Part shown: positions 27,110 to 37,162 of the stretch, piece by piece
Numbering within the stretch: the first letter of the stretch is position 1
How the letters are laid out: each line of letters opens with the position of its first letter
Source: Actinomycetota bacterium
Lineage (GTDB): Bacteria > Actinomycetota > Acidimicrobiia > Spongiisociales > UBA4744
NCBI GenBank assembly: GCA_013152275.1
Contig: JAADGS010000073.1
Span: forward strand, 1-64,000
Length of the DNA stretch: 64,000 nt
Reading direction: 5' to 3'
The notes under the pieces: model-generated
What the model was told of the DNA's origin: nothing
Databases searched by the model: none
The model's input: the letters and a program-made list of their open reading frames with translations, nothing else
Program-made: the position numbers and the translations under genes

Positions 27110-28282
27110 CTACCAGAGTTCGACGTACACGAGGATGGGGACGGCGGGTGTCGACGACAAGCCGGTCGCTTCCCGGAAGTCCCACAGTTCGACCCAGAAC
27201 CGGACACCGTCGGGGCGGGAGAAACTGCCCTGGTAGTGGGGGAGCCGGTCATCGTTGATCCGGGTGAAGCTGCCTCCGAAGCCTCGCTGGAGGAGTTTGC
27301 GCTCGATGTCGGCGCCGAGGGCGACATGGCTCGGAGCGCTTGCGGGGAGCGTGAAGTAATGGGCCTCGGTGTGGGTGGCACGCGGTGCCGCCTTGTCTGC
27401 GGCCTGTTTGTCGTAGAGGTCCTTGTCGGCGGCGACTTCGGCGGAACCGGCAGGGATCCACGGGTTGCCGGCGGCGAGTCGCCTGATCGACGTGTCGAGC
27501 CACTTCGCCACCCATTCGCCATGGTCCGGTGGAATCCAGTTGGCTCGACCCAGCACGAGCATGGCAACCGATTCGGCCATGTCTTCGGCCGGTCCGGTTC
27601 GCCCGTACTCGGTCGCCGCCCGACCTTCGAGTCGCCAGTCCGCGTGGAGGGGATCGGCGGATTCGTTGATCCAGCCGGTCCGGCCGGCGAAGGAGATGAC
27701 GAGGTCCGATCCGTCGGCGGGGTCGACGCGGGCGATGTCGCCGTCGAGTGCGGCCTGGATGTAGGCGGGGTCGAGGGCGCGAAACTGTGCCACGTGCGCG
27801 AATTCGTGGGCGAGGGCGCGTGCGAGGTCGAGGCGGGTGGTGCGGCCCCTGTTGGGTTCGAACGTCCGGTCGACGAGGTAGATGTCGGGTCCACTCGTGA
27901 AGGCGACGGCGTTGCCGACGTGCTCTTCTTCCGGAGCCGATCCGATACGGATGATGGATCGTGGGGCGCCAATCTCCCAGAGTGCTTCGGGCAGATCGGA
28001 GAGTGCGGCGTCGAGGAGCTCGAGTTCGGCCGGATCGGGATGTGGCCGTGACCCGACGACGGTGAGGTCGTGTACCGTGCGTTGCCACACGACGTCGGTG
28101 AACGGAGGCGATCCGAGGCGGGTGAGCAGGTCGGTATCGTTGAGGTCGAATGATCCCGGAGCCGTGGTCGAGCTCGTCGTGACCGGGGCCCCACAGGCCA
28201 CGACCATGGTTGCGAAGATGAGGATGAGAAGGCGTCGCACGGTGGCAGATGGTAGATGCAGGCGGGGATTGATCGATGCCAT
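27110..28282 (-). CDS. Putative HExxH metallopeptidase-like lipoprotein
   Basis: Protein of 390 aa. The N-terminus has basic residues, a hydrophobic helix and a lipobox-like VVACG (Cys30), so it is probably an exported lipoprotein. The zinc motif is ALAHEFAHVAQF (His159, Glu160, His163), with Glu237 in DMAESVAML as a candidate third ligand of a gluzincin arrangement. The C-terminal region is rich in Trp and Arg. The start is uncertain: ATG 28282 or GTG 28240 (directly before the helix), neither with a clear ribosome site. Family unknown; it is divergent from mdh. Confidence 0.7.
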   Translation of the reverse strand: MASINPRLHLPSATVRRLLILIFATMVVACGAPVTTSSTTAPGSFDLNDTDLLTRLGSPPFTDVVWQRTVHDLTVVGSRPHPDPAELELLDAALSDLPEALWEIGAPRSIIRIGSAPEEEHVGNAVAFTSGPDIYLVDRTFEPNRGRTTRLDLARALAHEFAHVAQFRALDPAYIQAALDGDIARVDPADGSDLVISFAGRTGWINESADPLHADWRLEGRAATEYGRTGPAEDMAESVAMLVLGRANWIPPDHGEWVAKWLDTSIRRLAAGNPWIPAGSAEVAADKDLYDKQAADKAAPRATHTEAHYFTLPASAPSHVALGADIERKLLQRGFGGSFTRINDDRLPHYQGSFSRPDGVRFWVELWDFREATGLSSTPAVPILVYVELW

Positions 28283-31377: not shown

Positions 31378-31938
31378 TCAGGGAGTCGGGTCCGGCTCGA
31401 TGTGCATCACCGTGTCCGCAGCCCAGCAGGTGTTGACGACAGGGTCTCTGTTGCACACGGAGCCGGAGAACCACGCGAAACCGGTGAGCCAGTCATGGTC
31501 GAAGACCACACGGGTTCCGAGCCAGTCCCTGTCGGATCCGTCGTTGTCTCGCACCGCCTCAGGCCAGTTCTCCTCCAGCGCGAACCATGTGCCGCAGCGG
31601 AGGAACGCTCCGTCGTCCCCGCTCACGAACGGACGGTATCGTTGGCGGGGTCCGATCGTGCCGGATTCGTCGGATTTGTAGATCCACACTTCAACGACCG
31701 CGCCACTGATGTCACGAATCGCCCCGGCGGTCGCTTCGAGGATGGCGCAGTCGGCACCGGACTCGTCACCGGCGGCCGCCCCAACCCGAGCGCCTTCGCG
31801 CGTGCCGGCCGTGACACTCAGCCAGTCGCGAAGCCCCATGCCCCACTCGACGCTCCCAAGGGCCACGAGCAGCAGCAGGCTGAGGATCAATGCGGCTTCG
31901 ATGACGGCGACGCCTTGTTCGTTGCGGATCCGCTTCAT
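31378..31938 (-). CDS. TadE-like pseudopilin protein
   Basis: Protein of 186 aa. N-terminus RNEQGVAVIEAALILSLLLLVALG is the TadE signature: a Gly followed by a hydrophobic helix carrying a Glu at position +5 to +6. Then comes MGLRDWLSVTAGTREGARVG, which is shared with the other TadE proteins of the cluster. The remaining 120 residues are extracytoplasmic with Cys and Trp. It is last in the cluster, 7 nt after the second TadG-like gene. TadE proteins are minor pseudopilins of the Tad/Flp pilus or related secretion apparatus. Confidence 0.87.
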   Translation of the reverse strand: MKRIRNEQGVAVIEAALILSLLLLVALGSVEWGMGLRDWLSVTAGTREGARVGAAAGDESGADCAILEATAGAIRDISGAVVEVWIYKSDESGTIGPRQRYRPFVSGDDGAFLRCGTWFALEENWPEAVRDNDGSDRDWLGTRVVFDHDWLTGFAWFSGSVCNRDPVVNTCWAADTVMHIEPDPTP

Positions 31939-31945
31939 CGTGTCA

Positions 31946-33385
31946 TCAAGGGTTCGGGATCAGTCGGACCGGGTTGCCGATGATCCGGGCCATCCAGGTC
32001 GTTCTGTCGTGTGGCTGGTTGAGTTCGATTTCCATGTACCACCAGCAATCGGATGAGCACGTGTAGCTCGACGGAATCTCGACGTTTGCCGTGACCCATT
32101 GGCCGTTGAAGATGGGGCTGCCGTCCGAGGTCTGAATCCTGCACGGCCCGCTGCTGCTGCTTCCGGTGATGGTGCCGTTCTCATCCTCGGAGAACCATGA
32201 GCACTGGGCCGTCGTACCATCGGGCATCTTGACGGTCATGTAGGCGTTGCCGTTGTCTTCGCCCGGGTCGTAGAAGTGCAGCTCGAGCCTCTTGCCCGCA
32301 TGGAGCTGTTCGACTTTCGCCAGGTTCAGTATCCCGGTGGCGCCCGGTTGATTGGTGAAGATCGAGATGTCGTTGATGCCGTAGACGTGTGGGTTCGATC
32401 CCGAGGAAACCGAGGCATGGACCGAGTACTGGTTCGTGCCGCCGAGATCTCCGGTGGTCCAGACTCGCAGGACATAGATGCCCGGTGTCAACGTGCCGCC
32501 GACATCGCAGAGCTCTGCCCAGCGGTTCTTGTAGGTGGAGGCATAGGAGCCGCTGGGGATGTCGAACCGGCAGCCGGCGATGGGAAGGTTGTCGGTCGGG
32601 TCGAGTGGCGTGGTATCCGGCTCGTACAGTTCGAAGTGGGTATCGGTTCCTCCACCATCGTCTTGGGCGCGATCGCCCGTCTGATAGCTGAAGTTGCCTC
32701 GTTCGTAGAACCCGGCATCGTAGATGTGAACCTTGAGGTTTGAAGAGCCGGGTGCCACTTCGATGCCGTAGTAGTAGCCGGCCGGCCGGTACTGGGAGTT
32801 GTTGAAGTGGCTTCCGGACCACGGGTCATCCCAGAATTCGGTCGCGAATGCATCCCCGTTGAACTTGTTGGTGAGACGACCGGAGATCGCGGCCCAGAAA
32901 TTCGGATCTCCACCGGTGCAGTTGGTGCCCGGGGGATTGACCGGCGCTTCGCCGAAGCAGTTGTCGGGGCTGCCTATCGGCACGGGTTTGATGTATTGGG
33001 CGGTCGACGTTCTGGTGATCGTGAACTGGTCGAACCCGATGATGCGCAGGAGATAGGTGGGCACGGTGGTGGTCAGCACCACCTGGAGGCTGTTGTCGGC
33101 GAGTGGGATGAGTTGGACGCCTCCTCCCGGATACCCGTTGGCGGCCGCGGCGGCGTCGGCGTCGTTCTGGGCCTGATCCAGGAAACCGGGCAGGTTCACC
33201 ACCCCTGCGAGTGCGGCTGAGTCGGCGGCGTTCTGCAGTCTGGACGAGTTGAGGTACAGCCATGTGAGGTCGACGGAGAGCGCTGCGAATGCGAGGAGCA
33301 CGACGAGCGAACCGGCCGCCCATACGAGGACGGCTCCGTTCTCGGATGTCTCGAGTCGCAGGAGTTTCCGCAGTCGCGACCTCAT
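31946..33385 (-). CDS. TadG-like pilus-associated protein with large C-terminal region
   Basis: Protein of 479 aa. The N-terminal Tad/TadG domain has a basic lead, the GAVLVWAAGSLVVLLAFAALSVDLTWLYLN helix (quoted in parts) and the typical RLQNAADSAALAG. The long extracytoplasmic part contains Cys pairs, YYYGIEVAPGS, LDPTDNLPIAGC, YGINDISIFTN and the ending RIIGNPVRLIPNP. These elements are all matched in the paralogue at 34308-35783. No VWA MIDAS motif, common in TadG, is visible. ATG 33385 overlaps the upstream TadE stop by 4 nt. Probably secreted or surface bound. Confidence 0.83.
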   Translation of the reverse strand: MRSRLRKLLRLETSENGAVLVWAAGSLVVLLAFAALSVDLTWLYLNSSRLQNAADSAALAGVVNLPGFLDQAQNDADAAAAANGYPGGGVQLIPLADNSLQVVLTTTVPTYLLRIIGFDQFTITRTSTAQYIKPVPIGSPDNCFGEAPVNPPGTNCTGGDPNFWAAISGRLTNKFNGDAFATEFWDDPWSGSHFNNSQYRPAGYYYGIEVAPGSSNLKVHIYDAGFYERGNFSYQTGDRAQDDGGGTDTHFELYEPDTTPLDPTDNLPIAGCRFDIPSGSYASTYKNRWAELCDVGGTLTPGIYVLRVWTTGDLGGTNQYSVHASVSSGSNPHVYGINDISIFTNQPGATGILNLAKVEQLHAGKRLELHFYDPGEDNGNAYMTVKMPDGTTAQCSWFSEDENGTITGSSSSGPCRIQTSDGSPIFNGQWVTANVEIPSSYTCSSDCWWYMEIELNQPHDRTTWMARIIGNPVRLIPNP

Positions 33386-33939
33386 TCGAACGCCTCCGGT
33401 TCCATGCGCAGGATGGTGCTCTCGTCGATGACGTAGCTCCCGGTGAAGGGCGGGAAGCCGGTGATCCAATTGTGCGTCATCTGGATGCGGATGCCGATGA
33501 TGTCCAGTGGTTGTGAACCGGCAGCGGTCTGTCGCGTGGACGAGGGCCACTGTTCGACGACGCTCCAGTTCAGGAGAGGATTGGCGCACGGATCCGGATC
33601 GCCGCCCGTGTAGGTCCATGTGTTCGTGCGCGACGCGATCTGGTCACCATCGGAGGTCGCCTCGTAGATCTCGAAGCGGTCGACGCGATCGAGGAAGCCG
33701 TTGGGGAGAAAATCGACGATGCTTGTCATGATCTGGCAGTCGGCGTCTGGCGCCGTCCCCACGAACGCGCCTGTGCGGACTCCTTCGCGTGCGGCCTGTT
33801 CGACGGTGAGGAAGTCGTAGAAGGACATGCCGAACTCCATGATTCCGATGAAGAGGAGCATGATGAGCGGCATGACCAAGGCGAACTCGACGAGCGTCGC
33901 TCCGTCTTGGCGACGGTTTTGCCCGCGAAGAGGTCTCAC
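33382..33939 (-). CDS. TadE-like pseudopilin protein
   Basis: Protein of 185 aa. QDGATLVEFALVMPLIMLLFIGIMEFGM is the TadE helix with the conserved Glu, followed by SFYDFLTVEQAAREGVRTGA, like its neighbours. The extracytoplasmic domain has Trp/Asp-rich ends (MTHNWITGFPPFTG) that recur in all four TadE proteins here. GTG 33939 has GGGAGG 6 nt upstream. It overlaps the downstream TadG-like gene by 4 nt and may be coupled to a short upstream frame that ends at 33936. Confidence 0.87.
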   Translation of the reverse strand: MRPLRGQNRRQDGATLVEFALVMPLIMLLFIGIMEFGMSFYDFLTVEQAAREGVRTGAFVGTAPDADCQIMTSIVDFLPNGFLDRVDRFEIYEATSDGDQIASRTNTWTYTGGDPDPCANPLLNWSVVEQWPSSTRQTAAGSQPLDIIGIRIQMTHNWITGFPPFTGSYVIDESTILRMEPEAFE

Positions 33940-34097
33940 TCGTTTCCTCCCAGGGCTGTCTCCCAGCGTGGCGGCATCATCGCGCCACTGGCCCAGCCAT
34001 GGAATCTACACGACGCGATGAGAACTGCAACGGCGAAGGCCTTGAACGTGGTTGCGAACCGGAGGACGGCGATGTCCCGGTCGTCACGAGATCTCAT
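33936..34097 (-). CDS. Possible small membrane protein (53 aa)
   Basis: A short frame from ATG 34097 to a TGA at 33936-33938 that overlaps the TadE start (GTGA). It encodes a charged N-terminus (MRSRDDRDIAVLRFA), a hydrophobic helix (TTFKAFAVAVLIAS) and a short polar end. GGAAGG lies 10 nt before the ATG. The coupling to TadE and the single helix make it plausible as a small pilus-related or regulatory peptide, but no homology is recognised. Confidence 0.35.
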   Translation of the reverse strand: MRSRDDRDIAVLRFATTFKAFAVAVLIASCRFHGWASGAMMPPRWETALGGNE

Positions 34098-34307
34098 GAT
34101 ATCGCCGCCTTCCACCGGACAGCGACGCGTACGCAGTGTGATGCCAAGGAATAGAAGAGTCGAGGGAGATCTGCAGGCTGATCACGACCTCATCCCTTTT
34201 CTGCTCGCGAGGGCGCTTTCCGGGCCTTCCGGTCCCATACATGACAACCACGTCAGGCGTTCAGAATATCACTGTCCGTGGTCTCGGGCAAGGGGTTCGT
34301 CTGTACC
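34098..34307. other. Intergenic region between the two Tad gene sets
   Basis: The full gap between the TadG-like stop and the next TadE start is 368 nt (33940-34307), of which 33936-34097 may hold a small gene. The rest shows no convincing gene, hairpin or repeat. It may carry a promoter for the second TadE-TadG-TadE set. Confidence 0.5.
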
Positions 34308-35783
34308 CTATTTCCCCAGAACGAGGTGAAGGGGACTGCCGATGATGTAGGCACGCCACGTCGTCGTGTCCTGGGTCGTTCCGTTATACGCGTAGTGCAC
34401 TTTCCACCAGCCGCCCGGATAGGTGGCGGGGAGATCGAACTCTGCTTTGAGCCACTTGCCGTTGTAGTCGTGGGCCGGTCTGGTTGCGTCGATCGTGCAT
34501 GAGGTCCCCGAGGGGTGGGTGGTGAGCGCCGACCAACTGTCGGTCACCTCGTTTCGCATGCTTACGCGACACCCGCCGGACCACGGGCTTCCGTCGGGAC
34601 CGAGGAAGGAGATGATGTTGCTGACATTGTTCTGCGCGTCGCCCGGGTCGTAGAGCTCGACGACGAACGTCTTTCCCCGGTACGAAGAAGCCACTTCGGC
34701 GAGGTAGAAGTCGGCGCTCGTCGCCGAGATGTTGTTGAAGATCGAGATGTCACGGATCCCGTAGAGGCGCGGCGTCGCTCCGACACCGGTCACGTTGAGC
34801 GAGTAGCGGTTGAGGCCCGTATCGTCCTGCTGCCTCGGTGTGTCGACCCGGATCTCCAGCGGATAGATGCCCGGTGCAGGATTGGCGACCGTACAGAGCG
34901 ATTCCCAAACATAGGGGGCACCGGCGGCGAGCTCCGGCTCGGGGGGCTTGGTCACGCTGCATCCGGGGACCGGTGTGTTGTCGGAGATATCCAGCGGTGT
35001 GGGATCCGGGTAGTAGAGCGTCGCGATGACGGTATGGCCCGCTCCGCCGCATCCGCCGCAAACGTTGTGGTCTCCGGTGCGCTCATGATCGCCGCCGGGG
35101 GTGTGCAGGGCCAGGTCGAGGGTGTTGACGGTGAACGACGACGTTCCGGCAGCCACGTCCACGCCGTAGAGGTACCCGCGGTCCCGCCACGACGGATTGG
35201 GGGATGTGCTGCAATTCGCGCCGCTGCCGGCTCCGTCGGGACACCATGACGAGTAGGCGTCACCCATGCGCGTGTCCGTGTACTTGCCGTGGATGTTGGC
35301 CCAGAAGCCGACCCAGGTGCCGCTCTGAGGATCGTTCCCGAAGGTCGAGCCGGGACTTCCCATCGGCAGCGGGGGAACGAACTCGGCGATTGCCGATCGC
35401 GTGATCTTCTGGGAGGCCTTGCCGAACACCTTGAGAAAGAACGTCGGGACGGTCACCGAGACCGTGACTCTCAGTTCGTAGGGCGCGTTCGCGCCAGAGA
35501 CATCTTGGACTCTGGCCGGTGTGACGACGGCGGCGCCGACGCCGTCTGTGAAGCCGTTGGCGGTGGCGACCTGCCGTGCGGTATTGGAGGCGTCGGTCGC
35601 GAACTTCTCGGGCATGTAGATTACGCCGGCCAGTGCAGCCGCGTCTGCCGCGCGCTGAGCCCGGCTTGCGTTGAGGTAGAACCAACCGAGGTCGGTGGCG
35701 AAGGCCGACAGCCCGAGCAGAACGACGAGCATGATGCCCACCAGCGGGAGAACGGCTCCGCGTTCGGTCTGCGGCTGCTTCAT
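34308..35783 (-). CDS. TadG-like pilus-associated protein with large C-terminal region
   Basis: Protein of 491 aa, paralogue of the protein at 31946-33385. The Tad/TadG N-terminus is RGAVLPLVGIMLVVLLGLSAFATDLGWFYLN (quoted in parts), then SRAQRAADAAALAGV. The extracytoplasmic part has several Cys, GYLYGVDVAAGTS, YYPDPTPLDISDNTPVPGC, YGIRDISIFNN and the ending YIIGSPLHLVLGK. The start ATG 35783 shares one base with the upstream TadE stop. A longer frame to 35834 is unlikely. It is probably a large minor subunit or adhesin of a Tad-type surface structure. Confidence 0.83.
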   Translation of the reverse strand: MKQPQTERGAVLPLVGIMLVVLLGLSAFATDLGWFYLNASRAQRAADAAALAGVIYMPEKFATDASNTARQVATANGFTDGVGAAVVTPARVQDVSGANAPYELRVTVSVTVPTFFLKVFGKASQKITRSAIAEFVPPLPMGSPGSTFGNDPQSGTWVGFWANIHGKYTDTRMGDAYSSWCPDGAGSGANCSTSPNPSWRDRGYLYGVDVAAGTSSFTVNTLDLALHTPGGDHERTGDHNVCGGCGGAGHTVIATLYYPDPTPLDISDNTPVPGCSVTKPPEPELAAGAPYVWESLCTVANPAPGIYPLEIRVDTPRQQDDTGLNRYSLNVTGVGATPRLYGIRDISIFNNISATSADFYLAEVASSYRGKTFVVELYDPGDAQNNVSNIISFLGPDGSPWSGGCRVSMRNEVTDSWSALTTHPSGTSCTIDATRPAHDYNGKWLKAEFDLPATYPGGWWKVHYAYNGTTQDTTTWRAYIIGSPLHLVLGK

Positions 35784-36352
35784 CAGGGCACTCCCTGTGC
35801 AGGCTCGAGCTGGAACACGCTGTCGTCGGACCACGGGCCGCCCGGAAGCGGCATGAAGTTCGTCAACCAGGTGTGGTCGAAGATGATTCGCACACCGAGT
35901 TCATCCAGGCCCGGCAGGCGATTGTCACGGAGCGCGGGCGTCCAGGGACAGCCGTTGACCGCCATGCACATCCAGCCCCCGCCGGCCTTGGGGATATACA
36001 CATTGCTGGTGGAACACAGTCCTTCACTGCCGACGGCGCATCCCAGAGTGGCGTCGGCGGGATCTCCATTGCTGTCGGCTTTGTAGATCCAGACCGCCTG
36101 GATCGTAGACGAATGTATATCTGCCACGGCCTGTTCCACCGCGTTGAGGACGATCGTGTCTGCCGTGGCGGTGGTTCCGGCTGCCGAGCCGATACGCGCT
36201 CCGGTGCGCGCCGCGTTGGAGATGGACAGCCAGTCGATGAACGCGAATCCGAACTCGGCGACACCGAGCGCGAGGATCAGCAACATGGGCAGTACGAGGG
36301 CGGTCTCGATCAGGCTGACGCCACGCTCGGAACCGATCCGTTTTCGGGTCAT
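35783..36352 (-). CDS. TadE-like pseudopilin protein
   Basis: Protein of 189 aa. SERGVSLIETALVLPMLLILALGVAEFGFAF (quoted in parts) is the TadE helix with the conserved Glu, followed by IDWLSISNAARTGARIGSAAG. The extracytoplasmic part has five Cys and WLTNFMPLPGGPWSDDSV, matching the WITGFPPFTGSYV region of the TadE protein at 33382. The ATG overlaps the upstream TadE stop by 4 nt. It is the second gene of the first set (TadE, TadE, TadG). Confidence 0.87.
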   Translation of the reverse strand: MTRKRIGSERGVSLIETALVLPMLLILALGVAEFGFAFIDWLSISNAARTGARIGSAAGTTATADTIVLNAVEQAVADIHSSTIQAVWIYKADSNGDPADATLGCAVGSEGLCSTSNVYIPKAGGGWMCMAVNGCPWTPALRDNRLPGLDELGVRIIFDHTWLTNFMPLPGGPWSDDSVFQLEPAQGVP

Positions 36353-36870
36353 GATCCAAAAACCTGAGGCTCGATGCGCATGATGACCGCCTTGGTCCAG
36401 TTGGAGATACCATCGTTATACATCGTCGTGAGCCAGTGGTGCTGGAATCGGACGGTGACCTCGATCCGCTCTGTCGGTGTGTCGATCTTTCTCCCGGAGG
36501 GAAGCCAGTTGGGTGGGACATAGGAGAGGTCGTCCGGATCGGGACACGGGGTCCAGCGGCAGGGTGTGGTGCCGTCCCACCGGTAGGTGGTCGTCTCCGA
36601 CATGTGATCGGGGTCGTCGATCGTGACGTCGACGATATCGCCCATCATCGAGGCGGTGAGGGCGCGTTCGACCGATCGTAGGATGGCGATATCTGCTGCC
36701 GAATCGTTGCCTGCCACGGCCCCGATCCGAGCACCCTCCCTGCTCGCGTGACTGATCGAGAGCCAGTCCTTGAAAGCCAGGCCGAATTCCATAATGCCGT
36801 ACAGGACGGTAATGAGAAGTACCGAGACGATGGCGAACTCGATGAGGGTTGCACCGTGGTCGTCCTTCAT
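36349..36870 (-). CDS. TadE-like pseudopilin protein
   Basis: Protein of 173 aa, first gene of the cluster. DDHGATLIEFAIVSVLLITVLYGIMEFGLAF (quoted in parts) is the TadE helix, then KDWLSISHASREGARIGAVAG. It ends RIEPQVFGS, and the short Glu/Pro ending (RIEP, RMEP, HIEP or QLEP) is shared by all four TadE proteins. ATG 36870 gives a normal short N-terminus; GTG 36897, preceded by a run of six G, is an alternative. The upstream 36871-37134 carries no gene and probably the promoter of the set. Confidence 0.84.
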   Translation of the reverse strand: MKDDHGATLIEFAIVSVLLITVLYGIMEFGLAFKDWLSISHASREGARIGAVAGNDSAADIAILRSVERALTASMMGDIVDVTIDDPDHMSETTTYRWDGTTPCRWTPCPDPDDLSYVPPNWLPSGRKIDTPTERIEVTVRFQHHWLTTMYNDGISNWTKAVIMRIEPQVFGS

Positions 36871-37134: not shown

Positions 37135-37162
37135 GAGAGGGGCCCCGATCGGGGCCCCTCTC
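37135..37162 (-). terminator. Terminator of sdhCAB
   Basis: GAGAGGGGCCCCGA and its complement form an uninterrupted 28-bp palindrome 15 nt beyond the sdhB stop codon. Being symmetric, it could work from either strand. Confidence 0.82.

Follow-up and report, generated by a model that had tools for sequence, protein, structure and literature searches.

The Kil (Tad) pilus of Myxococcus xanthus has four KilLMN trios of TadE/F/G-like proteins, one encoded in kil cluster II and three in distinct tip clusters, and modelling backed by genetic evidence presents the KilLMN trimers as tips of this pilus that can be exchanged for one another; the genes for Kil tips 1–4 are reported to be restricted to Myxococcota (PMC12075869). 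In Caulobacter the pilus cluster does not include the orphan gene cpaL, whose product is predicted to join CpaJ and CpaK at the tip (PMC12607857, PMC13170226). In classic tad loci, tadEFG and the core genes stand together (PMC12075869). Among the type 4 filaments, Glu5 is absent from the K subunit that caps the HIJK tip complex, and likewise from PilA in the tip complex of Streptococcus sanguinis (PMC9934059).

The six-gene set described here shares with KilLMN the arrangement in trios of TadE/F/G-like minor pilins, the existence of several paralogous sets for one major pilin, the encoding of some sets away from the core, and a variable C-terminal domain in the large member. Both of its modules have the KilLMN-like content of two small pilins and one large one. 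Its two trios are joined at a single locus between sdhB and dapA. Tips of the Kil pilus function in predation and require a T3SS-like complex (PMC12075869). As with CpaJ, CpaK and CpaL, two small minor pilins accompany one large TadG-like pilin; unlike in Caulobacter, the small pilins are displaced too, there are two sets, and the TadG proteins have no VWA match in Pfam, whereas CpaL has a VWA domain. The TadE, TadF and TadG proteins of classic loci (as described in PMC12075869) belong to the same minor-pilin class, and matches to the TadE and Tad Pfam families were found, but the present set is separate from its core and doubled. The resemblance to HIJK and to PilABC of S. sanguinis (small pilins with a bulky tip subunit, one subunit lacking Glu5) is one of mechanism only and is not a claim of homology (PMC9934059). 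By analogy, and given the TadE and TadG family membership, the set fits with the KilLMN and CpaJKL kind. We read it as the minor-pilin half of a Tad pilus, doubled and displaced, and it is conserved in Acidimicrobiia.

Gene content and protein features

The set lies on the minus strand of the window (the whole stretch of 64,000 nucleotides that was analysed) and is transcribed in the order E1-E2-G1, a 368-nt spacer, E3-G2-E4. The first module consists of the TadE-type minor pilins E1 (36349..36870, 173 aa; PF07811, E = 1.3e-12) and E2 (35783..36352, 189 aa; E = 7.9e-13), followed by the large TadG-type minor pilin G1 (34308..35783, 491 aa; PF13400, E = 4.4e-11). The spacer (33940..34307, unstranded) has no gene assigned to it, and its DNA is 73% conserved within the genus. 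The second module begins with E3 (33382..33939, 185 aa; PF07811, E = 4.9e-15), continues with the large TadG-type G2 (31946..33385, 479 aa; PF13400, E = 1.7e-10) and ends with E4 (31378..31938, 186 aa; PF07811, E = 8.7e-10). From E1 to E4 the spacings between genes are -4, -1, +368, -4 and +7 nt. Scores for PF07811 (TadE) are 39–56 bits for all four small proteins (curated cut-off 22.9 bits), with the match at the N-terminus, and those for PF13400 (Tad) are 43.4 and 41.5 bits for the two large proteins (curated cut-off 22.3 bits); an NCBIfam search gave matches below cut-off only. Coordinates and Pfam matches thus confirm the preliminary description, made from the DNA letters, of four TadE-type and two TadG-type genes in the order E-E-G, gap, E-G-E. 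G1 and G2 are 38% identical, and E1 is 31–33% identical to the other TadE proteins of the window.

Upstream of the set lies the respiratory-chain operon sdhCAB; a dapA-like and an SCP2-like gene follow downstream (names read from the sequence, not obtained by family search). A perfect, GC-rich 12-bp hairpin (37135..37162, minus strand) is located between sdhB and E1, and the 66-nt stretch holding it has a folding energy of -40 kcal/mol; it is the probable end (terminator) of the sdh transcript. The hairpin is absent from the output of a pattern scan for terminators, and the scan for promoters and terminators found fewer matches than in its shuffles. Whole-genome family searches placed no Tad ATPase, platform or prepilin peptidase gene in the window, all matches to T2SSE, T2SSF and the A24 peptidase being on other contigs, in agreement with the preliminary description. 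The set is not a chance assembly, since a same-genus genome and another family of the order each have one-to-one orthologues of all six genes, arranged alike; the E2 orthologue in the same-genus genome (83%) was found by tblastn, having been missed by a simple gene caller. The set is therefore not lacking in relatives, an outcome that the preliminary description had left to a synteny comparison.

E1–E4 carry the class III prepilin motif with Glu at +5, a criterion of TadE membership. Of the 41 aligned TadE rows that have a residue at this position, E1–E4 among them, all have Glu; of 39 TadG rows, none has. The pattern, in which TadE keeps and TadG loses Glu+5, is by analogy as in tip-capping minor pilins. 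An AlphaFold2 monomer model of G1 (pLDDT 91) has a long helix, strands and then a long beta-rich region, with about 20 beta-strands after residue 135, which gives a large C-terminal region beyond the pilin-like part; the monomer model of E2 (pLDDT 89.7) has a long N-terminal helix followed by a beta-sheet, elements compatible with a pilin-like fold. A Foldseek search of the E2 model against the PDB gave no significant match, and a sequence search of solved structures with TadG returned nothing. For the G1 model, Foldseek returned only low-TM matches to multi-domain beta proteins (reelin, glycan-binding proteins, CBM27); assigning a ligand to TadG from these matches was rejected, the similarity being too weak to name one.

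Separability and divergence of the two modules

Each module, E1+E2+G1 or E3+G2+E4, has two TadE genes and one TadG gene. Judging from the trees, the split between the modules is old, because E1, E2, E3, E4, G1 and G2 each cluster with the corresponding proteins in both families, with modest support in some cases. Duplication of a whole trio is plausible and no stronger than that, because the TadE trees pair neither E1 with E3 nor E2 with E4 with firm support. The tree of the four TadE proteins that had been proposed for dating the duplication therefore gives separate orthologous groups and an old split, but no firm pairing; the description of the set as duplicated holds in outline, for two three-gene modules, which are elsewhere also found one or three at a time.

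Both modules sit at one locus in several sister-family members and in the window's genus, as would be expected if all six proteins worked together in a composite tip, or as minor pilins of a common pool, instead of as two alternative trios. We consider this improbable, as the modules also occur alone or at separate loci: L104 and L105 have only E1-E2-G1 at sdhB, and the MAGs they come from (JALSJV, WFOA01) carry E3-G2-E4 elsewhere, at L128 (where E3 is cut by the contig end) and L126 (where the trio adjoins a gene read from sequence as pth). The modules are also found in twos and threes, with two E1-E2-G1 trios in L107 and three trios in L109.

Compared with the same-genus genome G058, identity is 66% for E1, 82–83% for E2 and 90% for E4. 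G2 is the fastest-diverging of the six, with 60% identity overall and 90% over its first 50 residues, while sdhA, sdhB, sdhC and mdh are 94–96% identical between the two same-genus genomes. In the same pair, dN/dS is 0.18–0.35 for the six genes and 0.06–0.13 for sdhABC, SCP2 and mdh; the elevation is not special to the set, since a value of 0.31 is also found in the flanks, for the dapA-like gene and for the gene at 27110.

Tad-like cores and their association with the set

The source genome, which its named relatives place in the class Acidimicrobiia (3.07 Mb in 100 contigs, rated 100% complete), contains three Tad-like cores, at 22 kb and 118 kb on contig C18 and at 160–167 kb on contig C26. 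The C26 core has the order polA-rpsA-cpaB-tadZ-tadA-tadB-tadC (polA and rpsA, ahead of it, were named from sequence reading) and includes two flp genes, a VWA-fused tadB, an EpsG-like membrane protein and a two-component pair; no tadE or tadG is present there. The first core on C18 (22–25 kb) is a small, complete and self-contained Tad system with its own Flp-like, E and G genes, and matches to the TadE and TadG families in the whole genome are confined to it and to the window set. A single prepilin peptidase match (PF01478) was found in the genome, on contig C93. The tadA, tadB, tadC, cpaB and flp genes that the preliminary description had suggested seeking outside the window are thus on contig C26, in a core without its own E and G genes. 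The TadB of this core (L024:8706-10646) has an N-terminal VWA domain at residues 89–251; near full-length matches to it occur in families f1, f2, f4, f8 and others, and most f3 TadB matches start near residue 310, that is, without the VWA part.

In two families of the same order, f3 and f8, the E and G genes lie immediately before polA-rpsA-cpaB-tadZ-tadA. Such core-linked loci (L087, L093 and L095, and the named MAG loci L112, L115, L117, L120 and L132) extend to tadC where the contig reaches that far; the linked set is E-E-G-E-G in L087; in L095 it is E-G-E-G, with a small conserved gene lying between. In a Chloroflexota locus (L175) flp-tadZABC-E-E-G is contiguous. The sdhB-dapA interval holds the set in family f4 and in the window's genus, and no f1 or f4 genome among those searched had TadG and TadB matches on one contig. 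The distance between the TadG and TadB matches in other orders, measured in complete or near-complete genomes, is 208 kb (G102), ~470 kb (G157) and 88 kb (G081). Because the set sits at sdhB-dapA in two families (the window's and a sister family) and beside polA-rpsA-cpaB-tadZABC in two others, one of these positions is a relocation; we infer that the window set is most likely the relocated half of one Tad locus, because the C26 core has no E or G genes, the two are linked in relatives, and they co-occur. Two genomes of the window's family, G150 and G209, keep the core and have a different TadE/TadG set at the same locus (L101:4235-8217 and L102:305-6009, in the sdhB-dapA interval, with only the dapA side covered in L102), whose large proteins match G1 and G2 weakly or not at all.

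Co-occurrence was scored in 247 genomes of the class Acidimicrobiia, with E <= 1e-20 taken as a strong TadG match and E <= 1e-40 required for platform proteins. C26-type TadB was found in 62 of the 66 genomes whose TadG match is strong, in 34 of the 58 where it is weak and in 5 of the 123 that have none (Fisher p = 1e-38, a test that treats genomes as independent, which they are not). Four genomes with strong TadG have no strong C26-type TadB (G058, G020, G121 and G127). G058 does have the core, cut short in the assembly, as its TadA matches at 98% identity over residues 1–297 only, near a contig start or break; in G127 the C26-type TadA match is missing too, possibly for assembly reasons.

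The third core, at 118 kb on C18, consists of CpaB-TadZ-TadA-fused TadBC with its own Flp-like gene and small pilin-like genes downstream, the products of which have no Pfam match; its TadB and TadC form one 598-aa open reading frame (L026:6156-12419). The six proteins could serve this core instead of that on C26, and in some sister-family members (G013, G038 and G127) a core of this type is on the same contig as the E/G set, ~10–20 kb away, with sdhCAB and a few other genes in between. However, the third core owns Flp-like and pilin-like genes, its TadBC matches strongly in only 33 of the 66 genomes with strong TadG (22 of 58 with weak TadG) and yet in 28 of the 123 without TadG (Fisher p = 3e-4, on the same assumption of independence), and it is missing from most f3 genomes with linked E/G genes. 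We regard service to the third core as decidedly improbable.

Class III prepilins need a peptidase and an assembly platform. On the part of the contig that the window covers, the set has no core linked to it. That the six proteins form a stand-alone surface structure, or a group of secreted adhesins, working without a Tad core is nonetheless very improbable, given the strong co-occurrence with the C26-type core, the physical linkage in relatives and the class III prepilin features kept by TadE. Of the two possibilities raised in the preliminary description, a special surface structure is thus not supported, and export of minor subunits through a distant Tad machine gains support from the C26 core without E/G genes and from the homologous sets beside the core in sister families.

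Proposed role as pilus tips

We consider it likely that the six proteins form two three-protein minor-pilin complexes that prime and tip the Flp pilus encoded on C26, which would be a hair-like adhesion filament, and that they are a displaced half of that Tad system and not a stand-alone structure. The genome's single detected prepilin peptidase would cleave the E and G proteins, after which each trio (E1+E2+G1 or E3+G2+E4) may assemble in the membrane. The trio would then act as a primer from which the machine encoded on contig C26 (CpaB-TadZ-TadA-TadB-TadC) polymerises the Flp pilin, and would finish at the tip of the pilus, where the beta-rich C-terminal region of TadG would form the exposed binding end and may bind a ligand. 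One pilus type would thereby receive two alternative or combined tips, possibly with switching between them; by analogy with KilLMN and CpaJKL, we infer that the two trios are such alternative or combined tip complexes.

In a broader reading, to which we give even odds, Acidimicrobiia would have a few fixed 'tip loci' (sdhB-dapA and others) at which modules are duplicated, split or replaced and C-terminal regions change, so that the business end of the core changes. This would resemble the arrangement in predatory myxobacteria, except that the class is actinobacterial and the sites are not linked to the core. The findings indicate that Tad minor-pilin sets can sit far from their core, and annotation that seeks tadE and tadG only beside tadA would call such systems incomplete. 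Similar cores with different E/G sets at one locus also offer a natural comparison set for binding by pilus tips.

Two further sets differ in domain content. In G127 an extra TadE/TadG set follows E4 (L085:15412-17487), and its TadG has a match to DUF7305 that passes the cut-off and one to a putative ice-binding-like adhesive domain that does not. In G083 it is the second TadG (L087:6056-7504) that has a VWA domain (PF00092), a domain also described in CpaL of Caulobacter.
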